Source: an uncultured Pelagibacteraceae bacterium
Lineage (GTDB): Bacteria > Pseudomonadota > Alphaproteobacteria > Pelagibacterales > Pelagibacteraceae
Assembly: GCA_902570525.1 (NCBI GenBank)
Contig: CACFYN010000003.1
Span: 1-64,000 of the forward strand
Direction of reading: 5' to 3'
Length of the DNA stretch: 64,000 nt
Shown one piece after another: positions 16,984-18,805 of the stretch. Numbering within the stretch: the first letter of the stretch is position 1; every line of letters begins with the position of its first letter. The notes beneath the pieces were generated by a model. It was not told the origin of the DNA, did not search any database, and was given only the letters and a program-made list of their open reading frames with translations. The position numbers and the translations under genes were made by a program.

Positions 16984-17688
16984 TCAAATTTTAAAGCCTG
17001 CACTTTTAGCATCTTTATAAAAAGTTTTAACAGTTTCATTTGTTAGGGCTTTATATGATTTTCCAAATTTTTCAATTTTTTCAATAATAGATGGTGGTAC
17101 GGTAATAATCTGACACCCACATTGTTTAGCTTGGATATAATTATATGGTTCTCTAACACTAGCCCATAATATTTCAACATTTTTATATTTTCTAGCTGCG
17201 ATTACACTCTTTTTAATTTCAGGAATTGGATCTTTACCTGTATCACCAGCTCTTCCAGCAAAAATAGATATAATTACTTTTGTTTTTTTATTAATTGAAT
17301 TTAAAATTTTTTTTGTCTGTTTGAAGTTATATACAGCAGTAATATTGAGTTTTACTTTGTTAGTATTTAATTCTTTTATAATTTTACCCATAAAAAAGCC
17401 TCTTGAATTTGAAACTGGTATCTTAACGTATACATTTTTTCCCCATGTATTAATCTTAAGAGCTTGTTTTTTCATACCATTATAATTGTCAGCAAATACC
17501 TCCAACGAGACTGGTTTGTTTTTACAAATTTTTAGTATTTTTTTAGAATAGTTTTTATAATCTTTTGCTCCAGCTTTTTTCATTAAGCTTGGATTTGTTG
17601 TAAAACCTTTAACAATTTTTTTTTTATTAAATTTCCTAATTATATTTAATTCAGCTATATCACAAAAAATTTTAGTATTTTTTTTCAT
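16984..17688 (-). CDS. transaldolase-family protein (fructose-6-phosphate aldolase-like)
   Basis: A 234-residue TIM-barrel aldolase of the short transaldolase type. GFTTNPSLMKKAG (residues 28-40) is the family signature, K89 in VYVKIPV is the Schiff-base Lys, and SIFAGRAGDTGKDP is the phosphate-binding segment near 160. It could act as transaldolase in the pentose phosphate pathway or as a fructose-6-phosphate or related aldolase. The reaction is not decided by sequence. It is the last gene before the tRNA-Leu mini-element. Confidence 0.82.
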   Translation of the reverse strand: MKKNTKIFCDIAELNIIRKFNKKKIVKGFTTNPSLMKKAGAKDYKNYSKKILKICKNKPVSLEVFADNYNGMKKQALKINTWGKNVYVKIPVSNSRGFFMGKIIKELNTNKVKLNITAVYNFKQTKKILNSINKKTKVIISIFAGRAGDTGKDPIPEIKKSVIAARKYKNVEILWASVREPYNYIQAKQCGCQIITVPPSIIEKIEKFGKSYKALTNETVKTFYKDAKSAGFKI

Positions 17689-17725: not shown

Positions 17726-17833
17726 AAAATTTTACTTCCTAGAATTGTTGAAATATAAATAATATTAGCATAAATAAGTATGAAAATAACTCATGCCCTC
17801 GTGGTGAAATTGGTAGACACAAAGGACTTAAAA
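17726..17833. repeat. left copy of direct repeat (tRNA-Leu promoter region + 5' half), attL-like
   Basis: A 108-bp segment repeated at 18654-18758 with a few mismatches and a 3-bp length difference in its upstream part. The last 54 bp (17780-17833) are identical to 18705-18758. It holds the upstream region of tRNA-Leu and the tRNA up to the anticodon loop. Identity stops right after the loop sequence CTTAAAA. Confidence 0.9.
17795..17833 (+). pseudogene. truncated tRNA-Leu(UAA), 5' half only
   Basis: These 39 nt match the first 39 nt of the complete tRNA-Leu at 18720: acceptor 5' strand GCCCTCG, D-arm, 5' anticodon stem and loop. The 3' anticodon stem, variable arm, T-arm and CCA are missing. 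The next bases, GACGAGGGAT, could pair with the acceptor strand (CCCTCGT with ACGAGGG), so a short folded RNA is conceivable if the copied promoter is active. Confidence 0.85.
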
Positions 17834-17856
17834 GACGAGGGATTAACACTTTGATG

Positions 17857-17882
17857 AGTCTCTAGTAGTCTCTGGTAGTCTC
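17857..17882. repeat. three AGTCTC repeats at 10-bp spacing
   Basis: AGTCTC occurs at 17857, 17867 and 17877, with related 10-bp units between. The first unit contains CTCTAGT, the reverse complement of ACTAGAG found in the repeats at 17961 and 18617. One-turn spacing just inside the left boundary fits binding sites for an integrase or accessory protein. Confidence 0.5.
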
Positions 17883-17960
17883 AAACATCCTATAAAATCT
17901 CATAACTTTAAATTAGCTTTCAATTAAGATTAGAAAACAAGGCTTAATTAATTTGTCCAA

Positions 17961-17980
17961 ACTAGAGCAAGACTAGAGCA
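17961..17980 (+). repeat. paired ACTAGAGCA repeat, left side
   Basis: ACTAGAGCA at 17961-17969 and 17972-17980 (11-bp period). The same pair in the same orientation and spacing recurs at 18617-18636. These pairs flank the HNH gene and lie about 130 and 70 bp inside the two core repeats, where arm-type integrase sites sit in an integrated element. The function is inference. Confidence 0.7.
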
Positions 17981-17997
17981 TAGAGAGATAATATAAA

Positions 17998-18504
17998 TTA
18001 TTTTTTCAAAAATCTCCTATAGAATTTTAAAGTTTTTTCTATTTCCTCTAAAGAGGCATCTGATTTAATTCTATTAGCTAAATACGAAACTATAATAATG
18101 TTTCCTTTTACATATCCTTTTTCAGGAATTAATCTATCCAACGAAGGGGAAAATTTGTTACCACCCATACCTTTGCCATGGTTCATTTTAATACCAAGGG
18201 CGGGACATATCATATCTTTTGGCCAAACATCTTTAATATCTTGGTGTGTTATTTCAAAGGGGATGCTATTTCGTTTGGCTCTTCTTTTTGCTACATTTAA
18301 TATTTGAGGAAATGGATTTTTTCTAAACTTAATATTTGATTTATTTCTTTCACATTCAAGGCATTGAGACACTCTTTTAATTCCATTTTTATCTTTCCAT
18401 CCAGGAATATATTGAGCTTTTATTTTTCTAAATTCTTTTGATTTTTTGACTTTACCACAAGGGGTACAAAGTTTTTCTGATCGATATTGAGAAGTTTTTC
18501 CCAT
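17998..18504 (-). CDS. HNH-endonuclease-like protein inside the tRNA-Leu element
   Basis: A 168-residue basic protein. Two N-terminal zinc-type pairs, C13/C16 (CTPC) and C48/C51 (CLEC), precede an HNH-like region with C100-P-A-L, then SLDRLIPEKGYVKGN (122-135) and NRIKSD. The D-R-x-x-P-x-x-GY-x-x-GN pattern is common in phage and homing HNH nucleases. It is the only sizeable gene in the 925-bp unit between the two tRNA-Leu copies and has no integrase beside it. It could be a homing-type nuclease that spreads the unit, or a leftover phage gene. Confidence 0.72.
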   Translation of the reverse strand: MGKTSQYRSEKLCTPCGKVKKSKEFRKIKAQYIPGWKDKNGIKRVSQCLECERNKSNIKFRKNPFPQILNVAKRRAKRNSIPFEITHQDIKDVWPKDMICPALGIKMNHGKGMGGNKFSPSLDRLIPEKGYVKGNIIIVSYLANRIKSDASLEEIEKTLKFYRRFLKK

Positions 18505-18559
18505 GTCATAGATATATATTATCTATTTTTTAAATTGAAGAGAGTAATAATTTAAAGAC

Positions 18560-18607
18560 ATGAAAAAGCTTTTAGGGATCGTGATTCTGGGTTTTGTTAT
18601 AGGATAA
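18560..18607 (+). pseudogene. orphan signal-peptide fragment (15 codons)
   Basis: ATG followed by KKLLGIVILGFVIG and a stop. It has the charge and hydrophobic pattern of a signal peptide but no mature protein. It ends 9 nt before the right ACTAGAGCA pair. It may be the remnant of a secreted-protein gene cut by formation of the element; a chance ORF is possible. Confidence 0.35.
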
Positions 18608-18616
18608 TATGGGACA

Positions 18617-18636
18617 ACTAGAGCATGACTAGAGCA
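18617..18636 (+). repeat. paired ACTAGAGCA repeat, right side
   Basis: ACTAGAGCA at 18617-18625 and 18628-18636, the same 11-bp spacing and orientation as the left pair at 17961. Similarity continues on the 3' side (TAGAGAGATA versus GGATAGATA). Together with the left pair it brackets the HNH gene. Confidence 0.7.
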
Positions 18637-18653
18637 TGGATAGATAGATTAAA

Positions 18654-18758
18654 AAAATTTTACTTATAAGCCTTGTTGAATTATAAATATTAGCATAAAT
18701 ACTCATGAAAATAACTCATGCCCTCGTGGTGAAATTGGTAGACACAAAGGACTTAAAA
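18654..18758. repeat. right copy of direct repeat, attR-like
   Basis: A 105-bp counterpart of 17726-17833; the final 54 bp (18705-18758) are identical. Here the tRNA continues into a complete 3' half. Recombination between the 54-bp copies would release a 925-bp circle and leave one intact tRNA-Leu. Confidence 0.9.
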
Positions 18759-18805
18759 TCCTTGCCCTTTTGGGAGTGCCAGTTCGAGTCTGGCCGAGGG
18801 CACCA
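18720..18805 (+). tRNA. tRNA-Leu(UAA)
   Basis: A complete class II tRNA with CCA encoded (18803-18805). Acceptor GCCCTCG pairs with CGAGGGC, the anticodon loop is CTTAAAA (anticodon TAA), the long variable arm is GCCCTTTTGGGAGTGCC-like, and the T-loop is TTCGAGT. Its 5' half and upstream region duplicate 17726-17833, so this functional copy probably has a 5' half brought by the element. The oxygenase-like gene starts 18 nt downstream. Confidence 0.97.

Follow-up and report, generated by a model that had tools for sequence, protein, structure and literature searches.

How a leucine tRNA gene of a SAR11 bacterium came to be interrupted by a short segment of DNA, and what moved that segment there, is the question raised by a locus within a 64,000-nt stretch of an uncultured Pelagibacteraceae genome (GCA_902570525.1, contig CACFYN010000003.1, positions 1 to 64,000; hereafter the window). 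The original prediction, made from the sequence alone, described a 925-bp mini-element in tRNA-Leu(UAA) that restores the tRNA from its 5' side, flanked by a 54-bp perfect repeat inside a longer imperfect one and holding an HNH-like gene and repeats but no integrase. That description proved correct. The perfect repeat (17780-17833 and 18705-18758) begins and ends exactly at these positions with a spacing of 925 bp, and a longer imperfect repeat was found upstream of it (73 nt at 96% and 39 nt at 82% identity). ARAGORN called one tRNA-Leu(taa), at 18720-18805, and nothing at the left copy, although joining the 5' half of the left copy to the 3' half behind the right copy gives the same tRNA letter for letter. 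A tRNA-half pattern allowing up to 3 mismatches had 2 matches in the 64 kb and none in 100 shuffles, so the arrangement is not expected by chance. The longest ORF inside is the HNH-like one and no integrase ORF was present. The repeats, given without detail in the prediction, are two pairs of one word (17961/17972 and 18617/18628) and a triple AGTCTC, and a 15-codon ORF had gone unnoticed. The features are collected in Table 1.

Table 1. Features of the tRNA-Leu(UAA) locus, in window positions (handles beginning with L denote stretches of DNA that were read, here of relatives).
Position	Strand	Feature	Basis
16984-17688		Transaldolase gene next to tRNA-Leu	No hit in any of the 60 tRNA-Leu neighbourhoods of relatives, though present elsewhere in many of these genomes
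17726-17794	+	Left copy: original tRNA-Leu promoter region, now cut off from the tRNA 3' half (promoter role inferred)	82-96% like the right copy; no word pair of 8 nt or more upstream, unlike the right copy
17795-17833	+	Left 39-nt 5' half of tRNA-Leu(UAA), ending in the anticodon loop	Identical to 18720-18758
17834-17997	+	Left end (P' arm) with three AGTCTC repeats 10 bp apart (17857, 17867, 17877)	Similar left ends in relatives, 85% at best by global alignment
17961-17980	+	Left word pair ACTAGAGCA x2, 11 bp apart, followed by an AGAGAGATAA box	Repeat comparison
17998-18504	-	HNH-like endonuclease, 168 aa (cargo)	PHROG 3322 at 1.1e-31, endonuclease VII at 4.1e-19; no Pfam family at 0.001; of 201 same-genus genomes including the own, only the own matched at 1e-8
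18560-18607	+	15-codon ORF (MKKLLGIVILGFVIG), read as the truncated start of a secreted-protein cargo gene	Translation; first ~35 nt match the starts of cargo ORFs in L035 and L049
18617-18638	+	Right word pair ACTAGAGCATG x2, 11 bp apart (P arm)	Repeat comparison
18654-18719	+	Element-borne promoter region now upstream of the tRNA (promoter role inferred)	82-96% like the left copy; consensus promoter scan gave no plus-strand hit here
18720-18758	+	Element-borne 5' half of tRNA-Leu	ARAGORN; identity to the left copy
18759-18805	+	Chromosomal 3' half of tRNA-Leu (right half of attB)	ARAGORN; rejoining of the halves
17834-18758	+	Whole integrated element, 925 bp	Repeat spacing

To establish whether the element is a one-off, 150 relatives were searched at the DNA level, which gave both ends of the element at very different distances from each other. 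By hand count 77 other same-genus genomes had a match, of which the places of 60 were read, while 17 with mostly weak or partial matches were left out. Of these 60 neighbourhoods, 20 hold two or three exact copies of a 36-base 5'-half pattern; with up to 5 substitutions this becomes 27, with two to four copies each, and 33 hold a single intact tRNA. Exact copies end at the same base (GGACTTAAAA), with inserts between them that are often stacked, whereas some degenerate copies (in L079, L082 and the first copy of L051) have no recognisable left end. The genomes are mostly incomplete assemblies in which some contigs end inside arrays, and related genomes are not independent. Of the 33 single sites, 10 still have a right word pair of 8 nt or more, which we read as old insertions with a decayed left end; others look empty. 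Within 399 same-genus genomes the half pattern (up to 1 mismatch) occurs in 279, and about 115 of these, counted by hand, have two or more copies. In the sister family 0 of 41 genomes matched the pattern, but considering that their tRNA-Leu regions are mostly only 73-82% identical, this says nothing about absence. The own genome holds a second place with DNA of the element (L002, 36 nt), which is low-complexity lysine-rich coding DNA in the stretch read and was taken as chance, and a comparison of the element interior with phage records gave only weak short matches (best E 0.3 among the rows inspected).

We analyzed 39 intervals between copies (36 from relatives, the one in the window and two satellite-like elements) with four HMMs for satellite, Xer-like, pelagiphage and other integrases. 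Only the two satellite-like elements, of 7.8-8.8 kb and with a lambda/P4-type integrase and a primase, were hit; the window element and the 36 further intervals gave no hit. In line with this, a PF00589 search of 91 genomes, 55 of them same-genus, listed no match inside any array that was read. The 29 integrase-less cassettes with at least two AGTC in the left end range from 925 to 6376 bp (median 2654). The first plus-strand ORF starts at 162-229 bp in 24 of the 28 that have one, and the last ORF ends 156-265 bp before the right end. In these cassettes 72 ORFs are on the tRNA strand and 3 are not, one of the latter being the HNH gene of the window. This suggested that the tRNA promoter drives the cargo, but all 20 ORFs of the 11 tRNA-Ser intervals described below point the other way and the idea was rejected as a general rule. 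A tRNA-like RNA stub at the left junction, between GCCCTCG and CGAGGG, was rejected as well, given folding z-scores from -0.98 to 2.35 in 8 sequences.

The scanned cargo is diverse. Of 95 cargo ORFs 77 were scanned, those of degenerate intervals and a few small ones being left out. Pfam families included type I restriction-modification, caspase domain, autotransporter, ATP-grasp and carbamoyltransferase, and a pilin-type N-terminal motif was found in 11 proteins. Probably most of these 11 come from a 5.7-kb cassette of 11 ORFs (L049:3868-9553; 9 of its ORFs were scanned), with similar DNA in L044 and L050. PADLOC hits were mainly type I methylase and specificity subunits in the 25 of 177 families inspected, and the first 25 of 77 PHROG families named a pilin, methyltransferases, a helicase and endonucleases, but no capsid, tail or terminase. 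A model of the HNH protein of the window from one sequence reached a pLDDT of only 40 and was not used. From the 15-codon ORF just before the right end we infer that an internal deletion shrank the window element; it probably lost most of a secreted-protein cargo gene and may no longer move.

Evidence for movement comes from two relatives, genomes G080 and G031, which share a 2852-bp cassette at 97% identity over its full length, while the adjacent NAD-kinase region is 77% identical. G031 has a further 2817-bp cassette at the crossover, so that G080 serves as its natural empty site. This points to horizontal movement, by whatever route. For the copy in the window no syntenic empty site was found, as its left neighbour, the transaldolase gene, had no hit in any of the 60 neighbourhoods read (Table 1). 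Neither excision nor a circle was seen for any integrase-less cassette, and a search for the circle junction gave 0 hits in a viral contig collection (viral_contigs) for three junction patterns.

The most likely source of an integrase was found in satellite-like elements. Four IMG/VR contigs (L118, L183, L207 and L191) hold the tRNA-Leu 5' half followed by AGTC repeats and encode related integrases of 545-549 aa. Contig L118 repeats its first bases at its end, which we read as a 7.7-kb circle, and contains an integrase, a primase (AEP/DUF5906) and small ORFs; 9 of its proteins scanned against PHROGs gave no structural family. Relatives sit at tRNA-Leu(UAA) in the single-cell genomes AG-414-K15 (G179), AG-903-K07 (G227) and AG-909-L14 of uncultured Pelagibacteraceae, and a divergent one in genome G261 follows two cassette-sized intervals, which were not scanned for cargo. 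The satellite integrase is rare, as relatives of it occur in 9 of 399 genomes and several of these are partial. It is a tyrosine recombinase: PF00589 matched at 2.5e-7 for L191, although L118 stayed below the cut-off, and the PHROG integrase family at 4.3e-20. A structural model, which is weak (mean pLDDT 54), resembles lambda Int (Foldseek E 2.7e-5) and, weakly, P4-like arm-binding domains (target TM-score 0.64-0.78, but E above 0.1). A sequence search returned no solved chain, and tblastn of the integrase against phage records at 1e-5 returned no match.

Cassettes and satellites are linked by their end sequences and the short words in them. Upstream of most right-hand 5' halves lies a word repeated at exactly 11 bp. 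In 44 intervals (the 39 plus five of L248 and L259), 33 have such a repeat of 8 nt or more, against 0-2 at each other spacing from 6 to 19 and 0.35% of base shuffles. The word varies between elements, and about 126 bp inside the left end many elements have a second pair. Pairs of 7 nt or more occur at both ends in 28 of 44 intervals and are lacking at one end or both in the other 16; in 24 of the 28 the ends share at least 7 nt. Without a 267-bp element, in which both ends are one pair, and a cassette present twice, this becomes 23 of 26, three elements thus not matching between their ends. Free shuffles of partners gave a mean of 3.7 and a maximum of 10 in 2000 runs, and the stricter shuffles within left-end type a mean of 8.5 and a maximum of 17, so that the conclusion stands with a smaller margin within end types, which lowered our confidence in the reading given below very slightly. 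Common descent of the two ends of one element contributes to this agreement.

All six satellites examined carry their word at both ends, on the left once or twice between +130 and +165, inside or near the start of the integrase gene. In L118, L230, L231 and L248 the left words lie inside the first codons of that gene, so that arm site and arm-binding protein would share DNA. Four of the six share their word exactly with integrase-less elements: L230 with L051 and L259, L248 with L046 and L049, L231 with L038, L062, L071 and L072, and L258 with L263. Position and the arm-domain likeness make integrase arm-type sites the simplest reading, although sites for an excision factor, replication or packaging are not excluded. 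The left end of the window element is homologous to that of a satellite (43 identities in 55 with L231), but its own word was found in no satellite. Its 4 hits in the viral contig collection lie in unrelated phage coding DNA, and the only hit in 110 other genomes is a lone copy of the word pair with similar flanks in an intergenic region of genome G055 (L274; G055 C8 9117-9136), perhaps a remnant of an element elsewhere.

The design recurs at a second site. A satellite in genome G385 sits at tRNA-Ser(UGA), again duplicating the 5' half, and the tRNA-Ser half pattern was found in 125 of 201 genomes, in 9 of which there are tandem copies on one contig. These 9 loci (L260-L268) hold 11 intervals without an integrase hit, in which all 20 ORFs of 70 aa or more lie on the strand opposite to the tRNA. 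The ends share a word of 7 nt or more in 7 of 11, one of them a 251-bp element where both are the same pair. Of the 18 ORFs of 100 aa or more, 10 were scanned against Pfam and 9 of these against PADLOC, which revealed mainly restriction-modification and other defence-like genes: type IIG and type III restriction-modification, SNF2-PLD helicases, NB-ARC, NOV_C and HNH. The NB-ARC, NOV_C and HNH proteins had no PADLOC hit at 1e-10, nor had the type III-like helicase or the HNH protein of the window. Two elements without cargo, of 267 bp (L066) and 251 bp (L263), have one word pair only; they look like bare attP sites, perhaps left after loss of cargo between two pairs.

Taken together, we consider it likely that the 925-bp segment is an integrase-less member of a SAR11 family of tRNA-docked cassettes. 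In this view its circle would have an attP composed of a word pair (P arm), promoter, tRNA-Leu 5' half, crossover, AGTC repeats and a second word pair (P' arm), and a tyrosine integrase supplied in trans by a satellite-like element with the same arm word would recombine this attP with the anticodon-loop attB of tRNA-Leu(UAA). The 5' half of the host would stay behind as a dead left copy, while the promoter and 5' half of the element complete the tRNA, so that the site is regenerated and further cassettes can stack there. The anatomy, the arrays, the absence of an integrase, the homologous arms and, for other cassettes, the identity of their words to those of satellites carrying an integrase at the same tRNA were observed directly, whereas catalysis in trans, the role of the words as arm-binding sites and transfer between cells are inferences. 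Nothing was assayed, neither recombination by the satellite integrase nor mobilisation by accretion with a neighbouring element; cassettes next to a satellite were seen in G261. Against the reading weigh, besides the missing satellite for its word, the lack of any excision or circle seen for an integrase-less cassette, the lack of a syntenic empty site, the rarity of the integrase, the weak structural model and the elements without matching ends or without word pairs at both ends, the orientation of the HNH gene against the usual cargo strand. The interpretation given in the original prediction, integration from the 5' side with crossover in or before the anticodon loop by a non-autonomous element lacking an integrase, was supported by the relatives. 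The helper, proposed to be a phage integrase, is refined to that of satellites with a 545-551-aa integrase, and the alternative of a prophage scar is not favoured, as the only phage-like ORF is the HNH one and the arms differ by eye from phage attP. The outcome named in advance as counting against it, namely the same interval in all relatives without an empty site and no phage or plasmid carrying the core, did not arise for the family.

Of the other helpers, a pelagiphage integrase of the HTVC019P type appears unlikely. In the pelagiphages (PELAGIPHAGES) HTVC105P, HTVC109P and MedDCM-OCT-S35-C6 the match to the tRNA-Leu 5' half begins 73-83 bp after the integrase gene, which bears out the expectation that pelagiphages use this tRNA, and tRNA-Leu fragments in pelagiphages were noted earlier (PMC3861242; PMC8163748, first 34 bases). 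However, by eye the sequences beside these attP sites have neither the AGTC triple nor the 11-bp word pairs of the cassettes, and the HMM of their integrase hit no ORF of an integrase-less interval. Other viral contigs (L126, L131, L170, L215, L120, L123 and L128) hold the 5' half with unrelated downstream sequence, so further phage families may use it. Even less likely is a sedentary, Xer-like 317-aa recombinase of the host genus that moves the cassettes as in a chromosomal integron. A PF00589 match was found in 40 of 55 same-genus genomes, mostly one of about 325 aa open frame and about 90-100 kb from tRNA-Leu where both lie on one contig (six compared). Yet the arm words differ between cassettes of one genome (the two in L044 and the two in L046), which a single shared integrase would not predict, and they match satellites that carry their own integrase. 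The recombinase itself (G000 C5 9226-9759 (L093:4852-5805)) is divergent, with 317-318 aa in those read and scores below the NCBIfam cut-offs for XerC and XerD, where sister-family genomes mostly have two stronger matches; dimer resolution in this genus may be unusual.

Somewhat less improbable, though still doubtful, is that the elements are old insertions whose cargo is now swapped by homologous recombination between conserved ends, without a site-specific recombinase. The ends are indeed more alike than the interiors and some cargo recurs with decayed left ends, but the exact breakpoint shared by most copies, the stacking at the intact tRNA and the words matched within each element argue against it. 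A local duplication of the 5' tRNA region around an unrelated gene finds some support only in the lack of a syntenic empty site for this copy, and is very unlikely given the many relatives with the same breakpoint and the same end modules.

SAR11 are called the most abundant bacteria in the oceans (PMC7542561), and standard-ended cassettes at tRNA genes would give a concrete route for gene gain in their small genomes. The arm words give a testable rule for who moves whom, and the cargo at tRNA-Ser points to exchangeable phage defence. A more far-reaching reading, which the data do not exclude and which we hold to be about as likely as not, is that SAR11 possess an integron-like cassette system without an integron, in which tRNA genes serve as docking sites, satellite integrases as mobile helpers, and a short arm word as the address that decides which integrase moves which cassette. 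Such a system would load phage-defence and niche genes into streamlined genomes one small cassette at a time.

A literature search, which was limited to open-licence papers, revealed no description of these SAR11 cassettes or of the arm words, the nearest kinds being tycheposons, the tRNA-Lys island of Methylophilaceae and the ssrA islands of Dehalococcoides. Tycheposons of Prochlorococcus, also reported in Methylophilaceae, are likewise marine, docked at tRNA genes and variable in cargo, possess a tyrosine recombinase and are listed among phage satellites (PMC10872708; PMC11389934). They are given as 4-200 kbp (PMC10872708), whereas here most elements, that of the window included, lack an integrase, are about 0.25-7.5 kb with standard ends, use the tRNA 5' half and carry element-specific arm words; homology to described tycheposon genes was not examined. 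The additive flexible island at tRNA-Lys in Methylophilaceae shows recurring short repeats of one tRNA gene around variable content of 330 bp to 42 kb, but the repeat is the last 20 bp of the gene, and arms and helper were not described in the account consulted (PMC10872708). The ssrA islands of Dehalococcoides are tandem islands at one RNA gene, 16 with and 15 without an integration module, yet they involve a serine recombinase and the 3' part of ssrA, and no matched arm words were seen in their description (PMC3146451). Being flanked by att sites and free of a recombinase gene, the window element has the anatomy of a cis-mobilizable element. Integron cassettes and CALIN share cargo units in arrays with the integrase in trans (PMC11389934); no attC model was run here, but attachment is to a tRNA gene and each cassette carries its own attP arms. 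The pTN3-like integrases also use the 5' half of a tRNA gene as attB with a promoter from the element, but are archaeal and act in cis. This use of the 5' half is said to be seldom met in bacteria (PMC8371274), while it appears here in cassettes, satellites and pelagiphages. With P4-like satellites the elements carrying an integrase share a primase-helicase and an integrase N-terminus resembling arm-binding domains, helper-phage packaging not having been examined. Finally, the temperate pelagiphages of the HTVC019P group use the same tRNA-Leu 5' half as attP (PMC3861242; PMC8163748), but are full phages with another integrase and other flanking arms.
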